Shown in pieces: positions 9,759-31,135 of a DNA stretch of 34,945 bases. A model generated the notes under the pieces. The model was not told where the DNA came from. It did no database searches and worked only from the letters and a program-made list of their open reading frames with translations. A program made the position numbers and the translations under genes. Source of the DNA: Opitutales bacterium (GTDB taxonomy: Bacteria > Verrucomicrobiota > Verrucomicrobiia > Opitutales > T3Sed10-336). The stretch lies in NCBI GenBank assembly GCA_007130045.1, contig SLTG01000136.1, positions 1 to 34,945 on the forward strand. Direction: 5' to 3'. Each line of letters opens with the position of its first letter. The first letter of the stretch is position 1.

Positions 9759-12595
9759 TTTCGGAGTTAAAATCAAAACTTGAAGAGCAGAAGCTCGGCC
9801 CCCTTTCCTCAGAAACCGAACAGCGACTCCTCCGCCTTTTCGAAGTAAGTCCCCTCTATCACCGCACCCTTCTCAATCACCCCGACTACATTCCGTGGCT
9901 GGAGAAAACGCTCCCTTTTGAAGAGGGGAACAAGGTGGCTCTTCAGGCGGGAATCGCCGCCGAGTGGAAGGAGTCTGCGCGCGGGCTTTCCCCTTACACC
10001 GCCGACTACCTCGACGCATTGCGCCGGTTCCGGCGACGAATGTGCCTGCGATTCGCGTACCGCGAGGTCAACCGGATCGTTACCTGTGAACAATCCGTTC
10101 TCGAATTGAGCGTCCTGGCCGGCTGCTGCATCCGGGAATGCTACGCCCTCGCCTACGACCGCTGGCTCAAGCGCTACGGCGAACCGTGGGACGAGGAACT
10201 CAACAAGCGCGCACGCTTCTGCGTCCTCGCCCTCGGCAAACTCGGCGGGCGGGAGCTGAACTTCAGTTCCGACATCGACCTGATCTATTTTTACGAGGGC
10301 GAGGGACACTGCCGGAAAGCCGGAAAGTCCGGCGGCTCGTTTACCAACCAGCAGTTTTTCACAAAGATCGGCGAAACGCTCACCTCGATGCTGCAGGAAC
10401 AGAACGAATTCGGATTTCTGTACCGAACCGATCTGAGATTGCGGCCGGAAGGCGCGCGCAGTCCGCTTGTTCGCTCGTTCGCGGCGATGGAGCATTACTA
10501 CGCGGCGGCCGGGCAGAGCTGGGAACGAATGGCGTTGATCAAGGCACGGGCGGTCGCCGGCGACCGCTCACTCGGCGGAGAGTTGATGGAGACACTCCAC
10601 TCTTTCCGCTACCCGCGCCACGCGCCGCCCACCCTCCTGACCGAGATTGCGGCGATGAAAACCAGGACCGAGCGGGAAGTGGTCGGCGCGAAGAATCTCA
10701 ACGACAACATCAAGTCCGGCTACGGCGGAATCCGCGAAATCGAGTTCGTGGTCCAGACGATGCAGTTGCTCCACGCCGGTCGCAACCCCTTCCTGCAGAC
10801 GCATTCGACAGTGGAGGGGCTCCGGCAACTCGCCCGCTACGGATTTATCGAGGAGGAAGACGCCGAACGGCTCACAGGGGCCTACTGGCTTCTGCGCGCC
10901 GTGGAGAATCGCCTGCAGATGCGCCAGGAGCGCCAGACTCACGTGCTGCCCTCCGACGCGGACAATCGCGCGGCGCTCGCGCGGTCGTTCGGATTTGGCG
11001 ACTGGGAAAGTTTCCTGAATGAGCTCGACGCGCACCGGAAATACGTGCGCGGGATCTACACTGAAATCATCCCCTCCACCGAGGTCGATGAAGTCTTCGA
11101 TGCCTGGTGGAGCTTTTTCAGCAGCGACAAGATCCCTTCTCTGGCAGGAGAGAAACTCGAAAAATGGTTCCCGTCGGAAAAGGAAGCCGCCACGGAGCTG
11201 CGCGCGTTCGTCCTGGGCGAATCCCACCGTCGTCTCAGCCAGGACCAGGTCACACGCTTCCAGAATCTCGTTGAAACGTTCGACAAGGTGCTTCCGGGTC
11301 TGGCTTCTCCGTTCCGTGTTCTTCGCCGTATCTCGTCGTTCGCCGGCCGCTACGGCACCCCGACCCAGTTTCTCCATGCCTGTTCGGCCAACACGCGTTT
11401 CTTCCAGGTTCTGGCGCTGCTCTTCGATCGCAGCCGGTTTATCTATGAAACGCTCTGCCGCCACCCGGAAATTTTTGATGAGGTCCTCCGCCCCGAGATC
11501 CTCAAGCGTAAGAAATCCGTCGAGGAGACCTTGGCGGAACTGCGCGCCGCAAACGGCGACAGGGAGTTGCGCGACTGGCTGTGGATCTACGTGCGAGCGG
11601 AACAAATCCGCCTGGCGATCGGCGAGCTCCTGGAGTTCAACGAAGCGGCTGAAAGCGTGGCGAGTCTCACGGTGCTCGCCGATGCCGTCGTGACTTACGC
11701 AATCGAACAGTTCAACCCCCCCGGAGATTTTTTACCGGTCGCTCTCGGGAAATACGGCGGGAACGAACTCACGTTCGGCGCGGACCTCGACCTCATTTTC
11801 ATCGGGCAGCGCAAGCATCTCCCCGAACAGGAAAAAGCGGTCCAAAAGTTTGCCAAACTCCTGAGCACCCGGACCGCCACCGAATCCGTTTACGAGATCG
11901 ACCTGCGGCTCCGGCCGCACGGAAAAGCCGGGCCCCTCGTGACCACGCTGTCCGCATTGAAAAAATACCACTCGGATCGGGGCGCGGGCCAAGGTTGGGA
12001 GAAACAAATGCTGACCCGCGCGCGCGTCGTGGGCGACAACGGTAACAGCGGATTGGCCGGGGAGTTCCACAGGTTTATCGAGGACCTGCTTTACACCGGG
12101 CCGCTTCCCGCCGAGGAAGTGCGCAGATTGTGGCGTCTGCGCCTTCGAATTCAAAACGAGCGGGACCAGGTCGATCCGCCGGAACGTGCCTTCAAAACCG
12201 CCGCCGGAGGGCTGATCGACCTGGAGTTTCTCGCTCAGTTCCACCAGCTCAGGCTCGGATACAAACATCCCTCACTTCGAATGAACGGGACCCGGCCCGT
12301 ACTGGAAGAACTTGTCGCTCTGCGTCTGATCCCAAAACCGGCGGGAGAGGCCATTCTTTCGAATTTCGATTTCCTCAAGCGGATCGAAGGAAACGTGCGA
12401 CGCGACCTGAACAAGGGGTCGTCCGTTATCCCGGAAGATCCCCACGAACAGGCCGCTCTCGCCAAATGGATGAAATTCCCGGACCGGGAGAGCTTTTGGG
12501 ACGATTATACTCGGCGTTTGCGGGAGACCCGCCGGATTTTTCTGGAATTGATGGGCGGCGATCTCGGAATCCCACTTGAAAACGGCGGCGACTGA
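9755..12595 (+). CDS. glnE: Bifunctional glutamine synthetase adenylyltransferase/adenylyl-removing enzyme
   Basis: GlnE adds AMP to glutamine synthetase when nitrogen is ample and removes it by phosphorolysis when nitrogen is short, under control of PII. The 946-residue length is normal. Both nucleotidyltransferase halves keep their signatures: GKLGGRELNFSSDIDLIYFYEG near residues 160-180 (adenylyl-removing half) and GKYGGNELTFGADLDLIF near residues 660-680 (adenylylating half). Each is followed by an arginine-rich YRTDLRLRPEG or YEIDLRLRPHG block. Linker sequence GGIREIEFVVQTMQLLHAG and the repeat AGGLIDLEFLAQFHQL are also typical. The ATG at 9755 overlaps the rhomboid stop; no clear Shine-Dalgarno is seen, consistent with coupling. 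No glnA or glnB is in the window. Confidence 0.96.
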   Translation: MISELKSKLEEQKLGPLSSETEQRLLRLFEVSPLYHRTLLNHPDYIPWLEKTLPFEEGNKVALQAGIAAEWKESARGLSPYTADYLDALRRFRRRMCLRFAYREVNRIVTCEQSVLELSVLAGCCIRECYALAYDRWLKRYGEPWDEELNKRARFCVLALGKLGGRELNFSSDIDLIYFYEGEGHCRKAGKSGGSFTNQQFFTKIGETLTSMLQEQNEFGFLYRTDLRLRPEGARSPLVRSFAAMEHYYAAAGQSWERMALIKARAVAGDRSLGGELMETLHSFRYPRHAPPTLLTEIAAMKTRTEREVVGAKNLNDNIKSGYGGIREIEFVVQTMQLLHAGRNPFLQTHSTVEGLRQLARYGFIEEEDAERLTGAYWLLRAVENRLQMRQERQTHVLPSDADNRAALARSFGFGDWESFLNELDAHRKYVRGIYTEIIPSTEVDEVFDAWWSFFSSDKIPSLAGEKLEKWFPSEKEAATELRAFVLGESHRRLSQDQVTRFQNLVETFDKVLPGLASPFRVLRRISSFAGRYGTPTQFLHACSANTRFFQVLALLFDRSRFIYETLCRHPEIFDEVLRPEILKRKKSVEETLAELRAANGDRELRDWLWIYVRAEQIRLAIGELLEFNEAAESVASLTVLADAVVTYAIEQFNPPGDFLPVALGKYGGNELTFGADLDLIFIGQRKHLPEQEKAVQKFAKLLSTRTATESVYEIDLRLRPHGKAGPLVTTLSALKKYHSDRGAGQGWEKQMLTRARVVGDNGNSGLAGEFHRFIEDLLYTGPLPAEEVRRLWRLRLRIQNERDQVDPPERAFKTAAGGLIDLEFLAQFHQLRLGYKHPSLRMNGTRPVLEELVALRLIPKPAGEAILSNFDFLKRIEGNVRRDLNKGSSVIPEDPHEQAALAKWMKFPDRESFWDDYTRRLRETRRIFLELMGGDLGIPLENGGD

Positions 12596-16112: not shown

Positions 16113-16721
16113 TCAAAAGCTTCCCCGGATCCCGACTTCGATGATGTGAATGCGCGAACCGTCCACGCGGCCCTCGCCCCACGAGGCGTTCTGGGTAGCG
16201 AAAAATCTGTAACCGGCGCGGATGGCGGCGTTTCGCGCCAATTCATATTCGACCCCCGCCATCGCCTGGTAGGCGAAAACGGTCTCGCTGTCGTCAAACA
16301 CCGTTTCTCCCTCGGACCGGATTCGTTCGGCGGAAATCCGGGAGGCGCCGAAACCGCCTCCGATGTAGGGACGGTAGAGCCGGGCGCCGTAAAAATCGTA
16401 GAATCCATTCAGCATCAGCCCGAGGTTCTGAACACTGCCGCTCGCCCTTTGCGGTCCTGTGTCCGTGTCAAGTCGCCGAACGTCCGACGTACGATAGACG
16501 AACTCGCCCTCCAGCCGTACGGGATCAAAGTTAAAGCCGACCGCCACCGACCCGCCCAAGTCGTCATCCAGCTTGATGGTGTTGCCGTCGTCATCGCCGT
16601 GATCGCGCGGAAAGCCGAAACCGAAGCTGCCGCCCACGTAAATATCGGAGCGCAGGTCCGGGGTGGCGAATAGAAAAGCAAGGATCAGGGAAACCGCGGG
16701 AACCAGAATTCGGATTTTCAT
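16113..16721 (-). CDS. Small outer-membrane beta-barrel protein (paralogue 1)
   Basis: This 202-residue protein has a signal peptide (residues 1-24, MKIRILVPAVSLILAFLFAT) and alternating-hydrophobicity strands: IYVGGSFGFGF, GSVAVGFNFDPVRLEGEFVYR, GLMLNGFYDFY, YRPYIGGGFG, VFAYQAMAGVEYEL, IRAGYRFFA. It ends in IIEVGIRGSF with the terminal Phe typical of BAM substrates. The layout matches the eight-stranded OmpA-like/opacity-type barrels. ATG 16721 is chosen because the signal peptide begins there; a longer open frame adds 25 residues without any such feature. It is divergent from the AsmA-like gene across 171 bp. It is clearly related to the barrel at 20721-21431, sharing LMLNGFYDFYGARLYRPYIG versus IMFNGYYDFPTRRIWRPYAG. 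Function is unknown. Confidence 0.82.
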   Translation of the reverse strand: MKIRILVPAVSLILAFLFATPDLRSDIYVGGSFGFGFPRDHGDDDGNTIKLDDDLGGSVAVGFNFDPVRLEGEFVYRTSDVRRLDTDTGPQRASGSVQNLGLMLNGFYDFYGARLYRPYIGGGFGASRISAERIRSEGETVFDDSETVFAYQAMAGVEYELARNAAIRAGYRFFATQNASWGEGRVDGSRIHIIEVGIRGSF

Positions 16722-16786
16722 AGAATAAGAGTGTGAATGAGTCAGCAATACAATCCTTACGCCCTCCGTGTCGAGCTTTTTGCGCC

Positions 16787-16798
16787 GGGTGCGCACCC
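16787..16798. promoter_or_regulatory. Perfect 12-bp palindrome between divergent envelope genes
   Basis: GGGTGCGCACCC is fully self-complementary and lies in the 171-bp region between the barrel and AsmA-like genes. It could be an operator for either or both. Confidence 0.3.
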
Positions 16799-16852
16799 TG
16801 CTCGGATTCGGTTGCGCCGCAGCCCGGATGGCTTTAACATGGGGATAATTCC

Positions 16853-16869
16853 TTCCAATCGAGTTGGAA
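16853..16869. promoter_or_regulatory. Inverted repeat just upstream of the AsmA-like gene
   Basis: TTCCAA-TCGAG-TTGGAA is a perfect 6-bp inverted repeat ending 23 bp before ATG 16893. A GATAAT box (16844-16849) lies just upstream without a good -35. It may be a regulator site. Confidence 0.3.
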
Positions 16870-16892
16870 TTTTTTCCGGATACAGGTTTCTT

Positions 16893-19800
16893 ATGCGCCG
16901 TTTTTTCGTTTACTTTTTCTGGACCTCGGCCGTCGTGGCTTTGCTCGCGATCGTCACGGTCGCCGCCTTATTCATCCCGTCCGTCCAGAAAGCCTTCCTG
17001 GTCCGCGCGCTTTCCGGGCCGGACACGGAGGTGTCGATCGACAACGTCCGCCTTCGGCCCGGATCCGCGGTCGTCTCGGGGTTGTCTCTGGCGACTCCGG
17101 ACGCGCGGATTCGATTCGAAGACCTCGACTCCCGATTCCGGCTTCGTCCGCTCCTTTTCGAGAGAACCGTCCACGTTGAGTCGTTCACCCTTTCGGATAT
17201 CCTCATCGAGACCGAGGAACCGGAAGACCCACCCGCGGACCTGTGGGAGGAATTCGAAGGCCTGTTGATCGACCTGCCTATTGATTTTCGGGTGGATACT
17301 ATGGAGCTCGACGGGATTTTCCGTTCGCCCGCCGGGACGGCGGTCGCCTTTGCCGTGCATGGACGGGATCTCAGTTCCCGCGGCAACGAGGGGCGAATCG
17401 ACGTGAGCCTCGACGTGGAGGATCCCAATCTCCCCGGCGACGGAAGGATGTTCGCCGCGATCGAGGTGCGTCCGGACTTCGACCGCGACGGAGTCTTTCA
17501 ACAACTGAGCGCGGACTTCACCCTGGGCGAGTCGTCCGACTCGCCGCCCCTGCTGCGTACCGAGTTCCGCGCCGAACGAACCCTCAACGGAGAAGACTAT
17601 CGGGCGACCGCCTTTGCTCCAGCCGGAACCGGGCCCGAGCATATCGTGCTTGTGGCGATCGGGGAATGGTCGCGTGTGGACCGCGAGACCAGGGGGGCGG
17701 TCCAAATCGATTTTGCCCGGAACATGCTTCCGGCGGACATCGGAATCGAATCAATTCCCGAGTTCTCGATGAAGGGCCAAACCGATTTTCTGCTTTCCGG
17801 CGACGGCGACATTCAACTGAAATCGGAGAACGCCGTCCGGGTGTCGGAAATCGCCGCGCGCTTCGGGATGCCCCCGGAATTCGATGAACTCACGGTCAAT
17901 GCTTCGTTCGATATCAACATTTCGGATACGCGCCTGTCTCTTGACTCGCTCGATATAGGTATCGCGGAACAGCAGGGCGTCGATCTCGTCCGGATCGGGG
18001 CGCCCTCCTCCCTTGGAATCGAATTGAACGGCGATGGAGTTTGGAGCTTTCCCGACCTCGATCAGCCTCTGCTTCTTGTGGATCTGCCGGGTATCCCTCC
18101 GGAATTGCTCAACCTGTTTCTCGGCGATCTCCGCCTTTCGGCCGATCCCATCACCGCGCGGTTTGCCCTCCATGCCCGAAACGACCGCTTCGAGCTCGAA
18201 ACGCCGGAACCCCTTTCGATTCGAAATCTCGTTCTCAGCGGGCCCGAGGGCAGTATTCTTGACGAGAGCGACATCCAACTGACTCCGTCCGCCGTCGTGT
18301 CGGCGTCCGAATTTTCATTCGGGCTCGAAATCGACGCCTCCCTCCCGCAGGCACGTTCACTCGCCGTCGAGCTTCAGTCAGCCGGCGCCTTCCCGCCGTC
18401 CGACTCCACGCTGACGGTCGGCGTTCGTGCCGGCGGTCTTCCCGCCGAAGCGCCGGTTTCCGAGATCACGCTCACCGGAAACCTCTCCACCACGCATGAG
18501 ACGGGCAATGCCCTTCCCGACTCAGCGGGTTTTTATCTCGTGACCGAAGGCTCCCTTCGTCCGAAATTCCCCGCCCACCTGCCGAACCGGATTAACGTGG
18601 CGGGCGAACTGAGACGCGCCGCGGACGGGATCTTCTATGAACTCGATTCATTTGAGGCGACCGTATCGCCCGCCGAACGCGACTTTCTTCTGCGCGCCGG
18701 CCTCCGCCAACCGATTTCTTTGCGGGGAGGCGGTTCCGTTTTCGAGACGCTGCCCCAGGGAGACCTTCTCGAAATCGAGTTGGGATTGTTGCGGTTGGAT
18801 GAATGGATTCCGGAGGAACATCAAAACGGTGTGGCCGGAGGTCACCTGCGCGGCGGCCTGCGCCTGAGCCGGAACGGCGACGAGCTCCACCTTCGCCCGG
18901 CCGGAGACAGTATTGAGATCGCCGGGCTCCTTCTCGGACCGATGGACGGAGGGGAACGTCCCTCCCTGACCCTGGCGCTGGTTCCCTTCGCGCAAATTGA
19001 CAAAGCGAACGCGAGTTTCGGTCTGGAAAGCCTGATTCTCTCGGCGGAGGAGCAACCGCTTCTCGAAGCGTCGATCGTCGGCGGCCTGCCCTTGAACGGC
19101 TCAAACGAAGCATTCCCCCGGATCACCGGAGAATTCTCCCTCAACGGCAATCTCGCCTCGGTCCGGACCATCCTGGGCGAGGGCGCCTTCCCAAATCTGC
19201 ACGACGGGGCATTCCACGCGGATGCCCGAACGACGCTGGATCCCGAGGATTTTCATGCCGAATGGGAGGGACGTTTCGCCCTTCCCGACCTGCGCGCGAC
19301 CGATCCCGGCAACGCCTTTGCGATCACCGCCACGTTCGATGGCGAAGCCGCAGACACGAGGGCTCAGGGCCGCGTTCTCGCCGGGATCGACGATGGCGCC
19401 GTTATCCAGGACGTGTCCCTCACATTCGAAGCCGATCCGAATAATGAGGGGACTCTTCCCCTTGTGGAAGTCCGCGGTGACAGCGAATATCTCGACCTGG
19501 TTCGCCTGGAAAACCTGGCCGGCATCTTTTCAGCGGACCCGCAACCGGACGCCGTTCCCGACGACGACCCGGCACCGATCGAATCGCTGCTGCCGGTGGA
19601 CCTCCGGGCCGAATTCACGGTGGCGCGGATGAAGGTCCTGCCCGGCTTCGACATCCACGACGTGCGGATCGAACTTGTTGGCGACGACGAAACGATCGAT
19701 GTCCGCCAGGCGCGGGTCGGATTCCTGGACGATGCCGAGATCGAGATCGCGGGAGTCCTTACGGCGAACAACGGAATGCTCGGCTTCGCCTCGACCGGAC

Positions 19801-20558
19801 GGGGCGCCAACATCGACATTGCGGACCTCATGCGGCATACCCAGGGCGTTGCGGAACCGGATATTGAAGGAGTCTTTTCATTTGACTACGAGGGGTCCTC
19901 GCAGGGAGCGGATCCGGCGGCCCTGCTCGGCGCTGTCGACGCCGTGCTGAACGTGACCGGCGAACGGGGCCGCCTGAGGCTCACGGTTCCCGACCGGCGG
20001 ATGGAGAGAATCCGGCGTCTCGCCGGCATGCAGGAAGGGGCGATCGGTTCTGTGATCGCGCGCCTGGCCGGAGCGCCTCCGGGCGTTCAGGCTCTGGCGG
20101 AAAGCGTGAATCTTCTCACCAACATTCCGTACGATTCGATCGACGTGCGGCTGGGAATGAGCGAAGGCCGCACCCTCGTCGTCGAACGCCTGGTGCTTGC
20201 CGGTCCTTTCCTCTATGCCGGGGGCGCCGGGAGACTCGAGGATTTTAATGCGGAAGCCATCGAAGACACCCGGCTCGACCTCCAGGTCGAACTCGGCGCG
20301 GCCGGGGATCTCCGGAATCAGTTCAGTATCCTGCGTCTGCTCTCCGATCAAAGCAACGCACTCGGCTACCGGATGCTTCGGCAACGCCCGGTCTCGATCA
20401 CAGGAACCGTAGGCGACCCGAATCTCCGCGAAGTATGGGATCTCCTGATACAGGCCGGCTCGGGCGCGGCGACCGCCCGCGAAACCCCTGAAGACGAACG
20501 CCGACGGGATCCGGTCGAAGACGCCGTCGAAGGCATCCGCGGCATCCTGGGATGGTGA
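16893..20558 (+). CDS. AsmA-like (AsmA/YhdP/TamB superfamily) envelope protein
   Basis: This 1221-residue protein has one N-terminal membrane anchor (about residues 7-30: FFWTSAVVALLAIVTVAALF). It then has a very long, repetitive, beta-rich periplasmic region. The opening resembles AsmA N-termini (VEDVRLRPGSAVVSGLSLATPDA-like text with DARIRFEDLDSRFRLRPLLF). The AsmA C-terminal-like region is near residues 1000-1190 (VLNVTGERGRLRLTVP, VRLGMSEGRTLVVERLVLAGPFLYAGGAG, LRQRPVSITGTVGDPNL). Proteins of this superfamily form hydrophobic grooves thought to carry phospholipids to the outer membrane. ATG 16893 is chosen because the anchor starts there; upstream codons of the longer open frame look non-coding. 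It is flanked on both sides by paralogous barrel genes on the opposite strand, and its end is followed by a shared hairpin. Confidence 0.82.
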   Translation: MRRFFVYFFWTSAVVALLAIVTVAALFIPSVQKAFLVRALSGPDTEVSIDNVRLRPGSAVVSGLSLATPDARIRFEDLDSRFRLRPLLFERTVHVESFTLSDILIETEEPEDPPADLWEEFEGLLIDLPIDFRVDTMELDGIFRSPAGTAVAFAVHGRDLSSRGNEGRIDVSLDVEDPNLPGDGRMFAAIEVRPDFDRDGVFQQLSADFTLGESSDSPPLLRTEFRAERTLNGEDYRATAFAPAGTGPEHIVLVAIGEWSRVDRETRGAVQIDFARNMLPADIGIESIPEFSMKGQTDFLLSGDGDIQLKSENAVRVSEIAARFGMPPEFDELTVNASFDINISDTRLSLDSLDIGIAEQQGVDLVRIGAPSSLGIELNGDGVWSFPDLDQPLLLVDLPGIPPELLNLFLGDLRLSADPITARFALHARNDRFELETPEPLSIRNLVLSGPEGSILDESDIQLTPSAVVSASEFSFGLEIDASLPQARSLAVELQSAGAFPPSDSTLTVGVRAGGLPAEAPVSEITLTGNLSTTHETGNALPDSAGFYLVTEGSLRPKFPAHLPNRINVAGELRRAADGIFYELDSFEATVSPAERDFLLRAGLRQPISLRGGGSVFETLPQGDLLEIELGLLRLDEWIPEEHQNGVAGGHLRGGLRLSRNGDELHLRPAGDSIEIAGLLLGPMDGGERPSLTLALVPFAQIDKANASFGLESLILSAEEQPLLEASIVGGLPLNGSNEAFPRITGEFSLNGNLASVRTILGEGAFPNLHDGAFHADARTTLDPEDFHAEWEGRFALPDLRATDPGNAFAITATFDGEAADTRAQGRVLAGIDDGAVIQDVSLTFEADPNNEGTLPLVEVRGDSEYLDLVRLENLAGIFSADPQPDAVPDDDPAPIESLLPVDLRAEFTVARMKVLPGFDIHDVRIELVGDDETIDVRQARVGFLDDAEIEIAGVLTANNGMLGFASTGRGANIDIADLMRHTQGVAEPDIEGVFSFDYEGSSQGADPAALLGAVDAVLNVTGERGRLRLTVPDRRMERIRRLAGMQEGAIGSVIARLAGAPPGVQALAESVNLLTNIPYDSIDVRLGMSEGRTLVVERLVLAGPFLYAGGAGRLEDFNAEAIEDTRLDLQVELGAAGDLRNQFSILRLLSDQSNALGYRMLRQRPVSITGTVGDPNLREVWDLLIQAGSGAATARETPEDERRRDPVEDAVEGIRGILGW

Positions 20559-20720: not shown

Positions 20721-21431
20721 TCAGAAATTAAAATGCAAGCCGACCTCAAACAGGTGCGCGTTCGTTCCGGTTAACTTGATTTCCTCTCTCTCTCCCCGCC
20801 TCATCGGGTCCCCGATGTCCCAGTGCACATTCTCCGAACCGAAATACCGGTATCCGATAGTCAGATCCGTCTCCGGGGCCAACTCAAACAGCACGCCCAC
20901 CATCAACTGGTACGCCAGAACGACCTCCGAGTCGGACGAGCGGGCGGGATTGACCGAATTCGTCAGCTCGAAATTCCGCAGCGCCAAGTGCGAGAATCCC
21001 AGTCCGGCGCCCGCATAGGGACGCCAGATCCGGCGCGTGGGGAAATCGTAATAACCGTTGAACATGATCGCCGTATCCCGAATGCTTCCGCGGGCCTCGT
21101 AGGTGCGCCCCACCAGAAATCCGGGCGCCAGATCCGGGTGCAAAGGCTCGATGCGGAAATACTGCTGTACCTCGGAGGTCCGGAACGCCGCCTCCAGTTC
21201 GAAACGCCACGACGTGTATTTGTATCCCCATGCCAGCGCCGCTCCCTGATGTTTCCCGGTGTCGATCGACCTGTTCAACGCCCTCTTGTAATCGCTCGCG
21301 TGGCCCGAGCTCATCGAAAACGAAAAATACGGATCCGCCTCGTACAGGAACATCGGCTCCGAGATCAGCGCCGGCAGTTTACCGGGCAAAGCAAACGCAC
21401 AGAGAACGAATAGAAGGCAAAGCTTTTTCAT
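20721..21431 (-). CDS. Small outer-membrane beta-barrel protein (paralogue 2)
   Basis: This 236-residue protein has a signal peptide (about residues 1-21, MKKLCLLFVLCAFALPGKLP) and barrel-type strands: GAALAWGYKYTSWRFELEAAFR, AIMFNGYYDF, WRPYAGAGLGFSHL, VVLAYQLMVGVLFELAP, LTIGYRYFG. It ends in HLFEVGLHFNF with a terminal Phe. It shares strand order and several motifs (NG[FY]YDF, RPY.G.G.G, YQ.M.GV..EL, GYR[FY]F) with the barrel at 16113-16721, so the two are paralogues on either side of the AsmA-like gene. The upstream 227 bp (21432-21658) holds no gene; on the minus strand it contains a TTCATCCGTGGTTT-like simple sequence. The cargo or ligand is unknown. Confidence 0.8.
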   Translation of the reverse strand: MKKLCLLFVLCAFALPGKLPALISEPMFLYEADPYFSFSMSSGHASDYKRALNRSIDTGKHQGAALAWGYKYTSWRFELEAAFRTSEVQQYFRIEPLHPDLAPGFLVGRTYEARGSIRDTAIMFNGYYDFPTRRIWRPYAGAGLGFSHLALRNFELTNSVNPARSSDSEVVLAYQLMVGVLFELAPETDLTIGYRYFGSENVHWDIGDPMRRGEREEIKLTGTNAHLFEVGLHFNF

Positions 21432-23623: not shown

Positions 23624-26600
23624 TCAGATTTCATCGGGCTCCAGCCAACGAAACTGGACGACCTCGAACTTCCTTCCAAAGCGATCGGTGCTCGGATTCT
23701 GCGGCTCGACACCACTGGCATCCGGGTTGATCGGGGTGGGAACGCGCTGAACCACGGCTTCGAGCCAGGCGCGGGCTTCCACTCGACCCGTAACCGGATT
23801 ATGGGCATCGCCGTATGCGCGAACAATGAACGTGTCCGAGCGAGCCGTCAGCACCGACCCAAGCGTCGCAAGGAGGTCGTCTTGCGTCAGGAATGATGGG
23901 GAGGCTCTAGGAATCCGCCGCCATTCGGCTCCGTCGAAATACCAATTCAAACCGACCTCGGCAATACCGCCCCCTCCGGAGGTCTGCCATCGTACTTCAT
24001 CGATCGCATCCTGCAATATCCCCGATCCGATGAATTCGGCAACGGTTCCGAAAACAGGATTTCCATAAGACCGGATCTTATCCACGATGATCTCGGCCAT
24101 CGCCATCGCGGCATGGTTATACGACTGACCTCCCTGTCCCGGATCGTTCACCTCGGACCAGAATTGATAAGTGAATTCGTTGTTAAGCGGAAACTCCAAA
24201 TTCAATGGCTTCAGCTCGCGCAGGCTGTTCCGCCAGATGCTGCGCGCGGGCGTCCCCGCAATGTTTTCACGTCCGAAAAAAGTAGCACCGGGGGCCGAGG
24301 AGAAGCGGGAGTAGAAGCTCCCCAGGGGTGAGTTCGCAAATTGGTCGTTGTGCCTGTACACTTCGCCCGTAAAGGGACTAAACACCAGTAAATCCTGTCC
24401 CGCAAAGCTGTGCAACAGCGCCGCCCATGCTTTCACGGATGTCGAGTTGATGTTGAAGGCGCCGTCGTTCAGGACATGCGCGGCGGCTTCCCCGCTGTCG
24501 CGCATGCGATTCAATGTATCCGTATCGAACCCGGTTTCATCCAGATAGGGGCGGATCCGCGGATTCAGAAAGAACGGCCAACCGGCATTCGCCGAAGACG
24601 GCAAAACCGCCGTCGAGAAAAAGTGGGTGTCGAACATGGTCGCGGGCGGGCGTTCGACGCGTACTCGAAGCTGGCCCACCGAGCTGATCGGAATCCAGTC
24701 GTCCGTCCAATTTCCAGATCCAAAATGCGAGAATCCCCCGCTGGAAAGCGATTGGAGATCCTGCTGCACATCGCGCAGGATGTGGTAGAACGTCATGTGC
24801 GGGGGAGGACGCGATGCCGGGCTGGAGCTGCCGGGATTGATCGTCATGATCCCCTGATTTTCCAATTGATTGGCGTATGCCTGGTTTGAATCCTGGTAAA
24901 CGCTCGGGATTCCCATGCCGGGATCGAAGAACACAAGGGCGTAGCCGCGCCGACTGTTGTCGGGCCGCGCGAGGACGTTCGGAATCTGATGGCCGTAGAA
25001 TGTACGTCCCCGTTCCTCATAACTCAGGTTGCGCAGAGGCGGAAGAGAATTATCCAATCCGGTAATGATGCGCCCCTGGGTGTCCACACCGAATCCGAAC
25101 GGCAACTGCGATCCCGGCGCATCAAAATCAGCCATGTACGTGAAGAAATTCCCGTTTGATCCCCAGTCCGCACGCCATGCTTCTACATTGGCATAGGAAG
25201 GAAGCGCTCCCGCATCGATGCCGGAAACATCTTGAAGGCTTACCGAGTCTTCCAAAATAACGAGTTCGCCCTCGTTGGTGAGCACTCTCAGGTTCAACGT
25301 GTTGCCCTCGGGAAATGAAATGGTTGGACGTGCCTCAAAAAGAGTGTAACCCAGGCCGGGGCTGGCAGGTGCGAATTGACCCGTAACCAGCGCGCCGGCG
25401 CTATCGACGCTGAACAAGTGCGTTTCTCCCGAGAAAATTCGCGTCTGCGCATTTCGCTCGAACGCAAGGCGATCATCACTCAAGAGAACCAGATCGCCGA
25501 CCCAAACGTCGAATACAGGGTCAAACTCCTCCTCTTCATGCTCCCACCAGAGGCCAACGGCAACCTGCATGTCTCCTTCAAGCTCGACCGAGAAGGAATC
25601 CACCTCGAGATCGACGTCAAAGGGATTCCAGAGACCGAGCCGCACAACGAGGTTCAAATCGATATTCTCCCCCAATCCGTTGCCCGTGAAGCTCCCGAGG
25701 ACGTGAGCGTGAGTCACAACCGGCTGCGCAAAGGGAGAAACGGCAGCCACGACGCCAAGGGGATACTCGGGATTATCACTGTCCGGCGTTCCCGCCGACC
25801 CGGGCGCCAGCCTGGATGTCGCCCGCGCATTGGCCCACGCCCGGTGGTCGCTGTTCCAACCGGGTTGGCTGAATCGTGTCAGATCGATCTTCAAGCCTCC
25901 ATTCTGACGCGTCGTCGCCTGAACGCCGCGTGAATAAGCTGTTGTATCATGAAAGAGCCTTTCCATTTCCTCCGCGGCATCATTGATGCTGTCTCGTTTC
26001 GAGAACCCGTACGGACGGTCTCCCCACTCGGGATTTCGGATCAGTCCTCGAAAGTTTCCGTTCACTGTCTCGCCATGGGCCTGTCCGCGGGTTATGACCC
26101 GCTGCCATGCGCTCAGGCGCGGATTGATGTGCCGGCTGTTGAGATCGCCCGGTTGATAATTCTGGCCGAAGTAATGGAAGTCGCCGGTCGGAAAGTCAGG
26201 TTCGGAAAGCGTGTTCAGATAGGAAAACCCGAACCGGGTCGGACTGATCGTCCGCGCGAAATCGTCCGCCACCATCGGAGGATTTAACTGCGAAAGGAAG
26301 ACGTTATTCCCCCAATTATCCAACCTTTCCCGAAAAATATCCTGCTGCGACGCGTCGTTTCCAATATAGAACTCCTCTATGGGATACCGGTCACCCGCCT
26401 GCGCGAGACTCGCTTTCACGCCTTCGTCTCCGACCCAGTAGGCGTAGTGCCCGATAATGTGCCCGCCGCTCGGGAGCTGATTGTTACCCCCGGTAATCGA
26501 TTCCGTACCCAACCCCGGGTAGTGATCCACCCGCAACGGGATCCGCGGAGCGTAAACGTAGGCGGACAGTCTCGGTTCTCCCGGTCTCGTAACGTCAAAC

Positions 26601-27085
26601 GTGGGAACGAATTCCGCCGTCGAGCCCGGGCCAACCAGACGAACGAAATCATCGTCCGCCTGCATGGTGGGAACGAAGGTCCCGTTTCGTGGATCAAAAA
26701 ATTCATTCCCACTGACCAGAGTGGTCTCCACCATTCCCGGCGAATGTGGATTCCAAACCGCAGTCCAGAATGGATGATGCAAATTTCCGGGGGCGATGAA
26801 ACCGGGACTGAATCGCTCCCATCGGTTCGTCACGCGGTCGTCGCGACCCGCATGGCGCTGCAGTTCCGCGATCGCATGCTCCATCGCCTTCTTCGCGTGT
26901 TCCCGGGCGATGCTCTGCTTCAGCGTGTACCCGGCCACCTGGGTTTCGATCCTTGTGAAGGTTCCCACCGTGACCAACAGCAAAACCAGAAACGCCATCA
27001 GCGAAATCGTGATGATCAACGCGAACCCCCGCTTCGCCTCCAGTCCGCTTGGAAAGGTTTTTTGATGAGAACTGAACTGATTCAT
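23624..27085 (-). CDS. Large prepilin-like protein, Verru_Chthon cassette protein A type
   Basis: This 1153-residue protein has a prepilin-like N-terminus: a basic stretch ending in AKRG (residue 20), then FALIITISLMAFLVLLLVTVGTF (residues 21-43), then a long amphipathic helix (LKQSIAREHAKKAMEHAIAEL). A class III-type cleavage after G20 is plausible, but the usual Glu at mature position 5 is absent. The long body ends in RAWLEAVVQRVP, then FGRKFEVVQFRWLEPDEI, matching my recollection of the C-terminus of Verru_Chthon cassette protein A. In other Verrucomicrobia, A is accompanied by small pseudopilins B, C and D; none are beside it here. ATG 27085 is preferred; ATG 27091 is possible and an upstream extension to 27355 looks non-coding. 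No Shine-Dalgarno is visible. Confidence 0.78.
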   Translation of the reverse strand: MNQFSSHQKTFPSGLEAKRGFALIITISLMAFLVLLLVTVGTFTRIETQVAGYTLKQSIAREHAKKAMEHAIAELQRHAGRDDRVTNRWERFSPGFIAPGNLHHPFWTAVWNPHSPGMVETTLVSGNEFFDPRNGTFVPTMQADDDFVRLVGPGSTAEFVPTFDVTRPGEPRLSAYVYAPRIPLRVDHYPGLGTESITGGNNQLPSGGHIIGHYAYWVGDEGVKASLAQAGDRYPIEEFYIGNDASQQDIFRERLDNWGNNVFLSQLNPPMVADDFARTISPTRFGFSYLNTLSEPDFPTGDFHYFGQNYQPGDLNSRHINPRLSAWQRVITRGQAHGETVNGNFRGLIRNPEWGDRPYGFSKRDSINDAAEEMERLFHDTTAYSRGVQATTRQNGGLKIDLTRFSQPGWNSDHRAWANARATSRLAPGSAGTPDSDNPEYPLGVVAAVSPFAQPVVTHAHVLGSFTGNGLGENIDLNLVVRLGLWNPFDVDLEVDSFSVELEGDMQVAVGLWWEHEEEEFDPVFDVWVGDLVLLSDDRLAFERNAQTRIFSGETHLFSVDSAGALVTGQFAPASPGLGYTLFEARPTISFPEGNTLNLRVLTNEGELVILEDSVSLQDVSGIDAGALPSYANVEAWRADWGSNGNFFTYMADFDAPGSQLPFGFGVDTQGRIITGLDNSLPPLRNLSYEERGRTFYGHQIPNVLARPDNSRRGYALVFFDPGMGIPSVYQDSNQAYANQLENQGIMTINPGSSSPASRPPPHMTFYHILRDVQQDLQSLSSGGFSHFGSGNWTDDWIPISSVGQLRVRVERPPATMFDTHFFSTAVLPSSANAGWPFFLNPRIRPYLDETGFDTDTLNRMRDSGEAAAHVLNDGAFNINSTSVKAWAALLHSFAGQDLLVFSPFTGEVYRHNDQFANSPLGSFYSRFSSAPGATFFGRENIAGTPARSIWRNSLRELKPLNLEFPLNNEFTYQFWSEVNDPGQGGQSYNHAAMAMAEIIVDKIRSYGNPVFGTVAEFIGSGILQDAIDEVRWQTSGGGGIAEVGLNWYFDGAEWRRIPRASPSFLTQDDLLATLGSVLTARSDTFIVRAYGDAHNPVTGRVEARAWLEAVVQRVPTPINPDASGVEPQNPSTDRFGRKFEVVQFRWLEPDEI

Positions 27086-27443
27086 AGTCATAAGATTAAG
27101 GACATTCCGCCACGCCACTCCCCAATGGCCCCGGCTCACTACAGACGTATCACCTGCGGCACGGCCCTGCACCTGAACGAACCCGCTTCGAACGAACGGA
27201 TGGAAACCGAAAACGAGGATTCGGAAAACAGGATACAGGCCATAATCAACGGGACGGACGGGAAGCACGATTTGAATCCCGACACGGCAACTCCCGGGAA
27301 GCCGCCGCGAAACGAACCCATCCCCGATCGTGAATCCCCCTTCCGTTTCACGCAAGCTCTTTCACACCGCCCCCTCGAAACCTCCCGGTCCCCGCAGTCG
27401 AATCCCGTGGCGTTATTCGCCACAATGCATCCGGCCCACCGGA
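27086..27443. other. 358-bp intergenic region upstream of the prepilin-like gene
   Basis: This region separates two minus-strand genes. It contains a hairpin at 27407-27423 next to the end of the upstream gene. A long open frame in phase with the prepilin-like gene crosses it but has no recognisable sequence. I found no convincing -35/-10 pair, though the gene's promoter should be here. Confidence 0.4.
27407..27423 (-). terminator. Hairpin after the four-gene operon
   Basis: GTGGCG-TTATT-CGCCAC is a perfect 6-bp stem beginning 20 bases after the last stop of the operon (27444). The following minus-strand bases are GGGATTC, not a T-run, so its terminator role is uncertain. Confidence 0.35.
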
Positions 27444-28601
27444 TCAATCGCCCGGGCGTATCTCTTCTTCGAGCCGGTCGAGCGCCTCCTCCGTTTCCCG
27501 GAAAAGCAGATCGGCTTCCCGGACGTCGTCGCGAAACATCGCCACGCCCCGCCTGTACTCCTCTTCAGTCCCCTCCAGCAACGACATCATCGTCAGCCGC
27601 AGCGACAGGATCGAATTAAAATGAAACGGATGAATCAAACGCATTTGCAGGTTCATGTCTTGGAGGCGACGCACCAAATCGCTCCGGAGGACGGGTTCGT
27701 CCCGGTGTTCCCATAATTCGTCGACCCCCAACCGCACTTCCTCGCCCTCCTTGCGATAGGTGAATCGCGAATGGGAATTCACCAGCCGCCGCGACTCGTG
27801 GAAATGGCTCTGGGTAACCGCCCTGCGCTGAATGCGTTCGTAAACCCCCACCGCCCACCAAAGCTGCGCGTTCTCAATCTCCCGAATATAGGACCCGAAC
27901 GTCGCCATCATACTCGCGTCCGGATCGCCCCCGGCGAGCAATCGAAGAACGAAATTGTGGAGGCGGCCGGATTGCCCGCCGGCCTGATCGAGGTGTCGCA
28001 ACAGCCAGTATGCATTGACCGCAAACGCCTCGTCCGGCGGTTCGTCCTCGTTCCGGTACAGTATCTCCCTCAACGGCATCGGACCTCGTTCGCGAATGCT
28101 CCGGACCATTGCGTCCACGTACGAGGGATCTCCCGCCGCCTGCAACGTGCGCTGCATACCCATCTCCAGCCAAGGTGGCACCGAAACCGACTCGTCCGGA
28201 ACTCGATTCCAGATCGCGACGCGCATCAGGAGTGCCCGCACCAACGCGCGCTCCAGATCCTCGAGTTCCGTCTCCCGATCCCAGCGCACCGAGAGGGTCA
28301 CATTTCCCGCCACTTCAATGTTTGTCCGAAACGGCTCCTCAAAACGATACCTCTCGGGAGACTCCAACTGCACGAATATGCGATTCGGAAAACCAGACGG
28401 GAGCCTTAACCAGTTGCGCGTGGTATGGATCAGGCTACGGGCAAGCGCGGCCGTGAAGTTCGTGCTGGCCCCCTCGTTCGAAACGATCTCGAAATACTGG
28501 GTTCGCGACGAAAAAAAAGTGTGCTCGCGTTCCGCCGTTTCCGCTGCGAGCGCCAGCGGACAGAAAAAAAGAATTCCGCTGCAGATCAAACGATTTCCCA
28601 T
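27444..28601 (-). CDS. Exported protein resembling a degenerate MA-family (gluzincin) peptidase
   Basis: This 385-residue protein has a signal peptide (residues 1-20, MGNRLICSGILFFCPLALAA). The layout recalls peptidase-MA-like proteins: an early strand (FFSSRTQYFEIVSNE) and AALARSLIHTTRNWLRLP. Then, at residues 114-150, LEDLERALVRALLMRVAIWN and VPPWLEMGMQ stand where active members carry HExxH and PxWLxEGxA. The HExxH zinc motif is not present (RALLM instead), so if homologous it is catalytically dead. The C-terminal half is helical and charged. Its ATG overlaps the upstream stop as TGATG, so it is translationally coupled to the membrane-anchored protein. The resemblance is by eye only; otherwise a protein of unknown function. 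Confidence 0.65.
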   Translation of the reverse strand: MGNRLICSGILFFCPLALAAETAEREHTFFSSRTQYFEIVSNEGASTNFTAALARSLIHTTRNWLRLPSGFPNRIFVQLESPERYRFEEPFRTNIEVAGNVTLSVRWDRETELEDLERALVRALLMRVAIWNRVPDESVSVPPWLEMGMQRTLQAAGDPSYVDAMVRSIRERGPMPLREILYRNEDEPPDEAFAVNAYWLLRHLDQAGGQSGRLHNFVLRLLAGGDPDASMMATFGSYIREIENAQLWWAVGVYERIQRRAVTQSHFHESRRLVNSHSRFTYRKEGEEVRLGVDELWEHRDEPVLRSDLVRRLQDMNLQMRLIHPFHFNSILSLRLTMMSLLEGTEEEYRRGVAMFRDDVREADLLFRETEEALDRLEEEIRPGD

Positions 28602-29266
28602 CAAGGAATCTCGAGGATCAGGATGCTGTCTTCGATCGTGACATCGCTCAGGCGACCCCATCCCTCCTTCAACTCTTCAGGAATATCCAGTATTTCCATA
28701 AACCGATTCAGCAGGGCTTCAATGCCCTGATGAGGAACTTGCATTCCCCCGATGTAAAGACGCTCGGGAGAATAAACGAATGTTCCGTTCCGTTGAACGA
28801 AGGCGCCGTGCGCCTGCGCGATGACGGATTTCTCGATTCCCAGAACCTTCGCATTCAATTCCGAAGCGATCTGAAGCGTATTATCGTAAATTCTGAAATT
28901 AAGGCTCCGCGGAGCGATGACGAAGAACCCTTCGTGACTTGTCTCCTCCCAATCAAATTCGGTGGCCACCCATTGGTTGAGTTCCTCTTCGACGATCTCC
29001 AGAGTTCCGGAAGTCCCGTTCACCAGCGCCCCCAGCTTGGGTCGCCAGTTGTACTGCCCGGGTGTCCCGATGGCGCCCTCCTGGTAATAAACCGTCCGGG
29101 CCTCGCGCGCCGCCTCAGGAGGCGTCGAATCGACCTCTTCAACGGGCTGAACAATCAGGTAAACGACCCCGAGCAAAGCACCGAGAATCAGACTCAAGAG
29201 AGCCCCGATTATGATTTCGTAAGGCTTGGGGCCTTTCCTCTGTTCCTTCTTTTTGAATGCAGCCAT
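28601..29266 (-). CDS. Membrane-anchored protein of unknown function
   Basis: I do not recognise this 221-residue protein. A basic start (MAAFKKKEQRKGPKPYE) is followed by one hydrophobic helix (residues 18-40, IIIGALLSLILGALLGVVYL). The remainder should be periplasmic and is mostly beta-rich: GTLEIVEEELNQWVATEF, FFVIAPRSLNFRIYDNTL, IASELNAKVLGIEKSVIAQ, GTFVYSPERLYIGGMQVP. It reads like a lipid- or ligand-binding barrel of the type seen in small DUFs, but this is inference. ATG 29266 is chosen over a far-upstream start that would overlap fmdB. It follows fmdB by ten bases with no Shine-Dalgarno and is coupled by TGATG to the next gene. Confidence 0.65.
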   Translation of the reverse strand: MAAFKKKEQRKGPKPYEIIIGALLSLILGALLGVVYLIVQPVEEVDSTPPEAAREARTVYYQEGAIGTPGQYNWRPKLGALVNGTSGTLEIVEEELNQWVATEFDWEETSHEGFFVIAPRSLNFRIYDNTLQIASELNAKVLGIEKSVIAQAHGAFVQRNGTFVYSPERLYIGGMQVPHQGIEALLNRFMEILDIPEELKEGWGRLSDVTIEDSILILEIP

Positions 29267-29276
29267 CGAATTAAAT

Positions 29277-29591
29277 TCAGGAATTCGGCGAAGACGGCGT
29301 CGCCTTTTTCGCGTCCTTCGCCCCCGAGGAGACCGTATCCTTGCCCGGTTTCTTTTCGGATTGAGCGCCGTCGGAGGATGCCTTTTCTCCGTTGGTCGCG
29401 GTGGAATTTTTACGGTAGTCCGTCTGGTAAAATCCGGAGCCCTTGAAAATGATCCCCGCACCCAAGCCGATTACCCGGCGCAATCCTGTATCCTGACAGG
29501 AAGGACAATCTGAAAGTGGCGGCGCTTTCATCGATTGAAAAGTCTCAAAGCGATGCCCGCACGAGGGGCAAGCATATTCGTAGGTCGGCAT
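29277..29591 (-). CDS. FmdB-family zinc-ribbon protein
   Basis: This 104-residue protein begins MPTYEYACPSCGHRFE with C8-x2-C11 and C29-x2-C32 (DCPSC), the complete four-cysteine zinc ribbon of the FmdB/CxxC_CxxC_SSSS family. After GIIFKGSGFYQTDYR (typical of the family) a low-complexity tail rich in S, K, A and D follows (residues 62-104). These proteins occur next to many unrelated genes and their role is unclear; 'regulatory protein' is a historical label. It is the second gene of the four-gene run, six bases after the DUF4013-like gene and ten before the anchored protein. Confidence 0.9.
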   Translation of the reverse strand: MPTYEYACPSCGHRFETFQSMKAPPLSDCPSCQDTGLRRVIGLGAGIIFKGSGFYQTDYRKNSTATNGEKASSDGAQSEKKPGKDTVSSGAKDAKKATPSSPNS

Positions 29592-29597
29592 ACGGTT

Positions 29598-30218
29598 TTA
29601 CAAAAATGTATAAGGTTCCAGCGGCGTGGATGGTTTTCTTGTCTCCAGTTCGTGAAACAAACGGAAATAAAAATGGAATACGACGCAGACGCCAAGAAAA
29701 AAAGCCAGGGGCAGGATCGGCGCGCCCGCCAGCAAAATTCCCAGGAAAACGAGCGTCGGAACGACTAATTCTTGCCCTCCGGCTTGAACCATGGTCAAAA
29801 CACGGTTGATTTCAAAAGCATCCCGCAACCGCCGTTTTGCCTGAAAACAATACAGGGAAGCGGCGGTCAGCGGAGGAGAGAATAGCATTACCGGTATCAA
29901 CATAATGTAGGCGAGCGGCCCAAAGATGCTGATGAATGGAAGACAGCTGAGCAGATACGCCACCGCCAGTGGCAAAAGGGCATACGCCGCGAAAATGACG
30001 AAAAAACACAGTCCTTCGATGAAAAGCTTCGACCAGTCCTCCCAGTCGGGCAGCGTGAGCGCCCCGCCCCGCCTGCTCTCCTCGAGCAATCGATACAAGA
30101 AGCCGAAAGCGAGGAAATTGACAATGGGAAACGCCATCAATATCCCCCCGAAGAGACACTTCCATCCCCAATCGGACTGCGAAAACATTCGCGGAAAAAA
30201 TTGATCGAAACTCTGCAT
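29598..30218 (-). CDS. Multi-pass membrane protein, DUF4013-like
   Basis: This 206-residue integral membrane protein has hydrophobic stretches near residues 22-45, 70-100, 105-130 and 160-190. The pattern fits DUF4013: an N-terminal WGWKCLFGGILMAFPIVNFLAFGFLYRLLEESRRG followed by LPDWEDWSKLFIEGL, then paired helices (FFVIFAAYALLPLAVAYLLS). No catalytic motif is visible. ATG 30218 is preferred; GGAG lies about 12 bases upstream. An in-frame TTG at 30230 is less likely. The gene heads the four-gene run and is divergent from ispA with only 35 bp between start codons, so at least one promoter must overlap coding sequence. Confidence 0.7.
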   Translation of the reverse strand: MQSFDQFFPRMFSQSDWGWKCLFGGILMAFPIVNFLAFGFLYRLLEESRRGGALTLPDWEDWSKLFIEGLCFFVIFAAYALLPLAVAYLLSCLPFISIFGPLAYIMLIPVMLFSPPLTAASLYCFQAKRRLRDAFEINRVLTMVQAGGQELVVPTLVFLGILLAGAPILPLAFFLGVCVVFHFYFRLFHELETRKPSTPLEPYTFL

Positions 30219-30253
30219 AATCGACGACAACTCCAGATAGTAGCGATCCGGTG

Positions 30254-31135
30254 ATGGACTTCAAAACAAAATTACAAGCCTTCCGGGTGCGCGTGGAGAA
30301 CGGTATCGAGCGGATGATGCCCGCGGCGGAAACACGTCCCCGGCGCCTGCACGAGGCCATGCGTTACAGCATGGAAGACGGCGGCAAGCGCCTGCGTCCG
30401 GTCATGCTTATCGCCGCGGCGGAACTCGGCGAACCCTGGGCGGATCCTTTGCCGGCGGCCGTCGCGGTCGAATGCATCCACAGTTATTCCCTTATTCACG
30501 ATGATCTGCCCTGCATGGACGACGGCGACCTTCGCCGCGGCAAACCCTCCTGCCACCGCCGGTTCGATGAGGCGACCGCCGTGCTGGCGGGCGACGCCAT
30601 CAATACCTACGCCTTCTTGCTCCTTTCACGACATTACCGCGAATTCCCGGAGCTCGCCGCCGGGCTTGTCATGGACCTGGCCGAAGCCGCCGGCAGCGAA
30701 AAACTGATCGGCGGCCAGATGGAGGACATCGAATCCGAACGTTCCGGGAGCGCGAACGAAGAACAAGTCGATTTCATCCATCGCAACAAGACCGCCGAGT
30801 TGATCGCCGCCGCCCTGGGAATGGGCGGTCGCCTTTCGGGCGCCGGTCCGGCGCAGGTCGAAACGCTGCGCGGAATCGGCGGGCGAATCGGGATCGCGTT
30901 TCAGATGATCGACGACATTCTCGATGCGACCGGAGACAGCCGGACGCTGGGCAAAGCAGCCGGCGCCGACGTCGCCGCGGAAAAGGCCACCTGCGTGAGC
31001 CTGTACGGCGTGGAGGAGTCCCGGAAGCGCGCACGCACCCACACTGCAAAAGCTCTCGAACAATGCCGGGACCTCAAAGGAGACCCGGTCTTCCTGAAAG
31101 CACTGATCCGCTCCCTCGAACACCGGATCCGGTAA
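30254..31135 (+). CDS. ispA: Short-chain polyprenyl (farnesyl) diphosphate synthase
   Basis: This 293-residue enzyme condenses IPP with DMAPP and GPP to farnesyl diphosphate, feeding quinone, undecaprenyl and hopanoid routes. The first aspartate-rich motif is D83-D84-LPCM-D89 (YSLIHDDLPCMDDGDLRRGKPS), with the two-residue longer spacing typical of bacterial FPP synthases. The second is D220-D221-IL-D224 (FQMIDDILD). K45 (GGKRLRP), H76 and the FIHRNKT block are in place. Length is normal. Start ATG 30254 (a GTG immediately before it, 30251, is also possible). It is divergent from the DUF4013-like gene and convergent with tpiA. Product length (C15) is inferred from the motif type. Confidence 0.92.
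   Translation: MDFKTKLQAFRVRVENGIERMMPAAETRPRRLHEAMRYSMEDGGKRLRPVMLIAAAELGEPWADPLPAAVAVECIHSYSLIHDDLPCMDDGDLRRGKPSCHRRFDEATAVLAGDAINTYAFLLLSRHYREFPELAAGLVMDLAEAAGSEKLIGGQMEDIESERSGSANEEQVDFIHRNKTAELIAAALGMGGRLSGAGPAQVETLRGIGGRIGIAFQMIDDILDATGDSRTLGKAAGADVAAEKATCVSLYGVEESRKRARTHTAKALEQCRDLKGDPVFLKALIRSLEHRIR

Follow-up and report, generated by a model that had tools for sequence, protein, structure and literature searches.

A putative four-gene operon of Opitutales encoding a predicted TULIP-like protein and a predicted gluzincin-fold protein without a zinc site

What four closely packed envelope genes of an Opitutales bacterium might do together is the question raised by contig SLTG01000136.1 of assembly GCA_007130045.1. 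The window, i.e., the whole stretch of 34,945 nucleotides analysed here, is one entire contig of a 3.4-Mb genome, and the genes run from 30218 to 27444 on its minus strand. In order, they encode a DUF4013 membrane protein (P0004, 206 amino acids, 29598..30218), an FmdB-family zinc-ribbon protein (P0003, 104 amino acids, 29277..29591), a membrane-anchored, probably TULIP-like protein (P0002, 221 amino acids, 28601..29266), and a secreted pseudo-peptidase of predicted gluzincin fold (P0001, 385 amino acids, 27444..28601). The answer offered here is tentative, and we give it somewhat less than an even chance: the operon would be a periplasmic lipid-handling module in which the pseudo-peptidase is a binding partner. 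The anatomy of the operon is well supported; its ligand and mechanism are what we infer from it.

The reading frames and gaps are exactly those of the four-gene operon described in a first-pass annotation made from the letters alone, with spacings of 6, 10, and -1 bases; at the last of these, the start codon of P0001 and the stop codon of P0002 share one base in TGATG. That annotation also named the first two products correctly, both of which exceed curated family cut-offs: P0004 scored 56.5 bits against PF13197 (DUF4013, cut-off 26.9), and P0003 scored 62.4 bits against PF09723 (cut-off 34.4, E 4e-17) and 71.3 bits against TIGR02605 FmdB (cut-off 31.3, E 5e-20). P0003 also holds two CPSC motifs, the paired CxxC of the FmdB zinc ribbon. 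Neither P0002 nor P0001 matched any Pfam or NCBIfam family above its curated cut-off. By hydropathy, P0004 has several membrane segments, P0002 has a single N-terminal one (residues 14-45), and P0001 begins with a signal-peptide-like N-terminus (5-23). We infer co-transcription of the four genes from spacing alone, as the promoter and terminator scan gave no signal: no sigma-70-like promoter was found where 1.3 were expected, and six terminator-like sites were found against 5.8 expected, which makes the scan uninformative.

The nature of P0001 was approached through its predicted structure. The AlphaFold2 model, built from eight sequences, had a mean pLDDT (predicted local distance difference test) of 84.5, and a Foldseek search of the PDB returned only gluzincins at ranks 1-8, the best with E 1.2e-3 and probability 1.00 (none at or below 1e-3); the labels are leukotriene A4 hydrolase, ERAP1, ERAP2, and Vibrio and Grimontia collagenases, which we take to be gluzincins throughout. 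With VIA-align, the best match was a Vibrio M9 collagenase (Z 15.3, root-mean-square deviation 3.9 over 216 residues), followed by M30 lugdulysin (Z 10.6) and M1 enzymes (Z 8.4-10), and all 50 best rows (Z 15.3 to 8.4) are presumably M9, M30, or M1 peptidases. The matches span residues ~28-260, leaving a helical C-terminal part (265-381) uncovered. Both programs thus give the model the overall fold of clan MA, and together they strongly suggest that P0001 has a gluzincin fold. Searching the sequences of solved structures with two family profiles (A1 and A2) yielded six weak matches each, with best E values of 0.1 and 0.29, and no peptidase or TULIP protein among them.

The zinc site of this fold appears to be gone. 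A 26-row profile of the P0001 family was compared by hhalign with four Peptidase_MA_2 (PF13485) proteins of the same order, which come from 4 of 27 relatives searched (a single one scores below the family cut-off); the genome of the window itself yielded none. The comparison gave a score of 38.2 (E 4.3e-5 for one comparison) over ~209 columns, against 19.9 for the best of 200 column shuffles and 12.4 for a reversed control. In the alignment, HEFTH of the Peptidase_MA_2 proteins lies opposite RALLM (residues 122-126, codons 28224..28238, minus strand) and WLSEG opposite WLEMG (144-148, codons 28158..28172, minus strand). The P-x-W-L-x-x-G element is thereby kept, Met147 stands in the place of the third-ligand Glu, and all three zinc-ligand places hold non-ligands. 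The two former zinc-site elements fall on successive helices of the model (113-131 and 143-157). Note that the HExxH register is possibly off by one, and there is no HExxH at the site in either case.

The same loss extends to every relative examined. HExxH was absent from the aligned site in each of 46 rows aligned for the order (representing 45 genes, as L025 and L028 are one gene), from the whole best-matching open reading frame (ORF) in each of 20 loci read outside the order, which came from 83 out-of-order genomes with a P0001 match, and from three further loci (L112, L113, and L114). An HEKTH in L061 was rejected as a zinc site because it lies at residues 382-386 of a 393-residue ORF, away from the aligned position. 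Some relatives keep the Glu of the W-x-x-E place without HExxH (L113, L119, L121, and L135 outside the order; L011 and L013 within it), which fits decay of an active ancestor. P0001 as an active zinc peptidase was rejected for want of HExxH; judged by the defining ligands, it is no member of a peptidase family and would be, at best, a binding-only gluzincin. The first-pass annotation had called it peptidase-MA-like without HExxH and had suggested looking for a gluzincin fold missing zinc ligands. Predicted structure and profile alignment agree on the latter, while the family likeness is seen by structure and profile-profile comparison and is invisible to single-sequence profile search: neither P0001 nor any of 13 A1 members reached the PF13485 gathering score. 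A Pfam scan of the out-of-order relatives (profiles A9, 16 members, and A10, 11 members) likewise found no shared family. In one genome (G038; L075, 5685-6851, minus strand), a single in-frame stop codon interrupts the P0001 relative, whereas its counterparts in the same genus (G338 and G349) are open; decay and sequence error are both possible.

The partner gene encodes what is likely, rather than proven, to be a membrane-anchored TULIP-like lipid-binding protein forming a new family within the TULIP kind. The AlphaFold2 model of P0002 runs from a membrane helix (~14-45) through short elements, a helix, a strand, a helix bearing E-x-E-L-N, four long strands, and two helices to two final strands, with the TULIP-like domain at ~67-221. 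Foldseek ranks 1-7 were YceB (twice), BPI (twice), CETP, and LBP (twice), the best with E 7.1e-5. VIA-align ranks 1-14 (Z 6.6 to 3.5) were CETP, YceB, BPI, LBP, P47, OrfX proteins, juvenile-hormone- and carotene-binding proteins, an Mdm12-Mmm1 chain, and BPIFA1; going by family, everything in both sets is a TULIP protein. The fold is graded as likely because the absolute scores are low and because VIA-align warns that Z below 8 may reflect a common arrangement. Among 16 P0002 relatives, one member each matched DUF2140 (E 0.13) and LmeA (E 0.083) weakly, which is in keeping with a TULIP fold. P0002 itself scored 12.2 bits against the DUF2140 (PF09911) gathering score of 34.3, and a search of its own genome found no DUF2140 protein up to E 10. 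YceB aligned to the profile of out-of-order relatives over 20 columns only.

Whether these genes belong together was addressed through their neighbourhoods. P0002 is present in 27 of 53 genomes, its own included, and 27 larger loci, all with P0002, were mapped; seven of these (L029-L035) were fetched via P0001, which is present there by selection. A divergent polyprenyl synthase adjoins the block in 24 of the 27 (in the window, 30251..31135, plus strand; PF00348, E 3.6e-55), FmdB is found in 22, DUF4013 in 17, and P0001 in 13. The murJ gene lies downstream in the same direction in 14 loci, and PGK and/or TPI occur in the stretch in nine. A survey of 177 genomes of the order detected P0001 in 80 and P0002 in 74. 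The two were found together in 47, and each of these 47 has P0001 immediately downstream of P0002 on the same strand. The adjacency limit was 800 bases between profile matches, set wide because some matches are truncated.

The pair is not obligate, and an obligate P0001-P0002 pair was rejected, as each gene occurs without the other. Seventeen of the 33 genomes of the order with P0001 and no detected P0002 were read. The gene directly upstream of P0001 was DUF4013 in six and FmdB in one, a weak TULIP match stood there in two (E 1e-3 and 4e-3), and, by eye, a coiled-coil-like anchored protein was present in five, a purF-like gene in two, and an unclear gene in one (L100, G359). The coiled-coil-like anchored protein, judged by eye, is what P0001 follows in place of a TULIP protein in one family of the order (f20; L093, L095, L099, L103, and L104). 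On the far side of the block in the window, where Pta genes and murJ follow it in a number of relatives, there is a large ORF with a pilin-like N-terminus (23624-27355, minus strand, start provisional) that weakly resembles T2SS GspK (0.0075) and Verru_Chthon cassette protein A (0.028), both matches being far below cut-off.

Parts of the arrangement recur beyond the order. In the first narrow P0001 search, 4 of 26 matches lay outside it (L112-L115). An anchored P0002 relative stands directly upstream of P0001 in L112, whose genome belongs to a different order of the class, and in L113, from a different class (in a small set, profile E 2.1e-8 and 1.8e-5, respectively; by hhalign, E 1.6e-6 and 4.7e-6), and FmdB precedes the TULIP relative in L113. 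No TULIP relative lies directly upstream of P0001 in L114 (G138), and the match in L115 (G285) was rejected as a false positive, being a transposase-like ORF by eye. Models widened to contain L112 and L113, which are therefore not independent in the resulting counts, detected P0001 in 117 and the TULIP gene in 84 of 387 genomes of the phylum. Both genes occur in 24 genomes of the order (adjacent in 21) and in 21 outside it (adjacent in 11: 10 in a single family within the class, plus G107 in a different class). Weak P0001 matches in G128, G210, and G222, on a contig other than that of the TULIP gene, were counted as non-adjacent.

Twenty loci outside the order were read, seven of which were picked because both genes had already been seen side by side. 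Six have FmdB, the TULIP gene, and P0001 in that order (L119, L120, L121, L124, L125, and L128), three have the TULIP gene adjoining P0001 (L122, L123, and L129), one has a TULIP-like gene by eye in that position (L135), and two have FmdB and the TULIP gene near P0001 without adjoining it (L133 and L134; L133 also retains polyprenyl synthase beside FmdB). No TULIP gene was detected in the stretches read in the remaining eight (L116-L118, L126, L127, and L130-L132), and the adjacencies in L128, L129, and L135 are not among the 11 counted above. Profiles from within and outside the order with no shared rows matched each other at E 1.8e-18 over 349 columns for P0001 and 1e-12 over 188 columns for the TULIP protein; as the out-of-order rows were found with models holding members of the order, this agreement is consistency and not blind proof. 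DUF4013 is more confined: among 115 genomes of the phylum, 13 had a match, eight of them above cut-off, and seven of these eight belong to the order; it also matched in three of 14 control genomes, all archaea, and had no match in the 20 out-of-order loci. Overall, the same gene order recurs across the Opitutales, and parts of the set recur outside it, so that the gene set is beyond chance. The expectation that gene order would be conserved across Verrucomicrobiota was thus borne out within the order and, in part, beyond it.

A separate observation concerns some out-of-order TULIP relatives, in which a zinc ribbon seems to stand N-terminal to the membrane segment (L113, 2669-3454, minus strand, and L135, by eye). 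Among 11 out-of-order TULIP members, one matches DZR (3.4e-4) and is, by eye, the protein of L113. Such a ribbon may be related to the neighbouring FmdB gene.

In the lipid-handling module that we tentatively prefer, P0002, which is anchored by its one N-terminal helix and exposes its TULIP-like domain, would carry a hydrophobic molecule in that domain, at or near the inner membrane on the periplasmic side; the likeliest ligand classes are phospholipids and isoprenoid lipids. P0001 would use what was once its substrate cleft to bind either P0002 or a client common to both, serving as a partner or adaptor and not as an enzyme. The DUF4013 protein would act as a membrane partner; among the loci examined, the block includes its gene only in genomes of the order. 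FmdB would be a small zinc-ribbon protein of the cytosol, perhaps with a regulatory role, and position is what suggests a partner role for both. The presence of polyprenyl synthase and murJ nearby is a hint of an isoprenoid ligand, although PGK and TPI are retained too, so that the hint may reflect ancestral order merely retained; the synthase, conserved beside the block, is at most a putative member of the functional unit. In the first-pass annotation, P0001 and P0002 could form a scaffold or chaperone pair. Adjacency and retained gene order uphold the pairing in part, given that each gene is also found without the other, and a scaffold or chaperone role may still apply; the anchored partner now looks TULIP-like, which points to lipid handling. 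A bolder extension, which we regard as improbable, would make this a lipid-transfer or presentation device widespread in Verrucomicrobiota, in which the inner-membrane TULIP protein passes its ligand, possibly an isoprenoid, to a zinc-free gluzincin turned lipid or lipid-carrier binder.

A number of results weigh against the lipid-handling module. For P0002, the mean pLDDT is 73.5, the best query TM (template modelling) score among Foldseek ranks 1-7 is 0.29, Z does not exceed 6.6, and a non-TULIP VirB8-like chain at VIA-align rank 15 (Z 3.4) is level with the last TULIP rows. Among its relatives, matches to unrelated families are as good as those to the TULIP families (E3_UbLigase_EDD 0.014, in two members; Cadherin_5 0.06), and single-sequence homology to YceB was rejected as marginal, the true comparison ranking second of 201 with 1 of 200 shuffles higher. 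For P0001, the hhalign probability of the Peptidase_MA_2 match reaches only 69%, and comparisons with each of the four proteins alone gave E 2.7e-5 to 0.0046. Co-occurrence of the two genes in the order is moderate, as ~33 genomes with both would be expected if the genes were independent, and the genes are separable, with 33 genomes having P0001 without detected P0002 and 27 the reverse. The five loci in which murJ directly follows P0002 all lack P0001. Of the 21 out-of-order genomes with both genes, 10 have them non-adjacent, and 14 of the 35 TULIP matches there are without a P0001 match.

The conservation of unrelated neighbours counts on the same side and introduces the main and serious rival, neutral synteny: four independent envelope or regulatory genes kept together with polyprenyl synthase, PGK-TPI, and murJ as ancestral gene order, without a joint function. 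The frequencies of those neighbours given above (polyprenyl synthase 24/27, murJ 14/27, PGK and/or TPI 9/27) speak for it, and every gene except P0002, on which the loci were selected, is missing from some of them. We nonetheless consider it somewhat unlikely, for the TULIP-P0001 adjacency persists with near-zero spacing in lineages where most of the neighbourhood differs, and the unit that recurs outside the order is FmdB-TULIP-P0001. If a joint function exists, it might still involve no lipid. P0001 could be a folding or outer-membrane assembly factor resembling the chaperone side of a gluzincin such as Escherichia coli BepA, with P0002 as its tether, and the long helical C-terminal part of P0001 (265-381) would suit that role. 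BepA provides the precedent: this periplasmic zinc metallopeptidase is reported to promote maturation of LptD in one situation (PMC8423444). We judge this unlikely, as P0001 resembles M9, M30, and M1 enzymes and Peptidase_MA_2, with no M48 chain among its best 50 VIA-align rows (which does not exclude M48), and its partner resembles lipid binders.

Two further proposals fare worse. P0002 might be a lipid sensor that detects lipid in the periplasm and relays the signal by way of DUF4013 and FmdB to targets in the cytosol, with P0001 as an accessory; in many loci FmdB stands upstream of the TULIP gene, and at least one out-of-order TULIP relative has its own N-terminal zinc ribbon (the DZR match above). 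Pfam and NCBIfam scans of these proteins revealed no known signalling domain, however, and the role of FmdB here is putative, so we find a sensor very improbable. That P0001 retains enzyme activity through some other active site is scarcely credible to us. The wide alignment does contain residues that are invariant or nearly so (W144 and P325; F37, G99, W249, and R312), but most of them are hydrophobic or structural, and reading the aligned former active site revealed no conserved set of His, Glu, or Ser.

How lipids cross the periplasm of diderm bacteria beyond the well-studied groups has, in our judgement, been charted only poorly. If the lipid-handling module is real, diderm bacteria gain a further TULIP family, one with a partner gene that recurs beside it, and a family of peptidase fold in which no member examined has kept the zinc site would be a case of an enzyme fold reused for binding; four unannotated genes thereby become a testable hypothesis. 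Among known proteins, P0001 is nearest to the Peptidase_MA_2 proteins of its own order, from which it differs in having RALLM for HExxH and Met147 for the third-ligand Glu and in falling below PF13485 detection. With the M9 collagenase peptidase domain and the M1 and M30 gluzincins, it shares the predicted fold of residues 28-260; unlike them, it has no zinc ligands, is only ~10% identical, and carries its helical 265-381 outside the match. BepA (M48) is a periplasmic metallopeptidase and a zinc enzyme, whereas P0001 is zinc-less by sequence, and the likeness would be one of role. P0002 has a predicted TULIP-like fold in common with the bacterial TULIPs YceB (DUF1439), DUF2140, and DUF2993, the last of which we take to be LmeA. 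It differs from them in falling below the DUF2140 cut-off, in leaving the other families unmatched, and in having a pseudo-peptidase as its partner gene. In a 2019 survey, DUF2140 and the C-terminal part of DUF2993 were assigned TULIP domains, N-terminal membrane anchoring like that of P0002 is given for DUF2140 and most DUF2993 proteins, DUF2140 is given from monoderms only, and the word 'Verrucomicrobia' does not occur in that text (PMC6791001). Open-licence PMC literature yielded nothing on the P0001-P0002 pair or on DUF4013 function, with coverage partly too loose to show absence.

Elsewhere in the window, positions 16737-20558 (plus strand) encode a 1273 amino acid protein with an N-terminal membrane segment that is AsmA/TamB-like by eye, without a Pfam match up to E 1, and is possibly a second envelope lipid-transfer protein in the window. 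It is flanked on either side by a gene for one of two similar small outer-membrane beta-barrel proteins (16113-16796 and 20721-21431, both minus strand; OMP_b-brl 3.3e-13 and 4.2e-10). In one relative (L083, genome G046), a Cas9-like ORF (8909-12199, plus strand) lies ~1.6 kb downstream of the TULIP gene, matching HNH_4 at 2.2e-13 and RuvC_III at 1.1e-5, the latter just below its cut-off.

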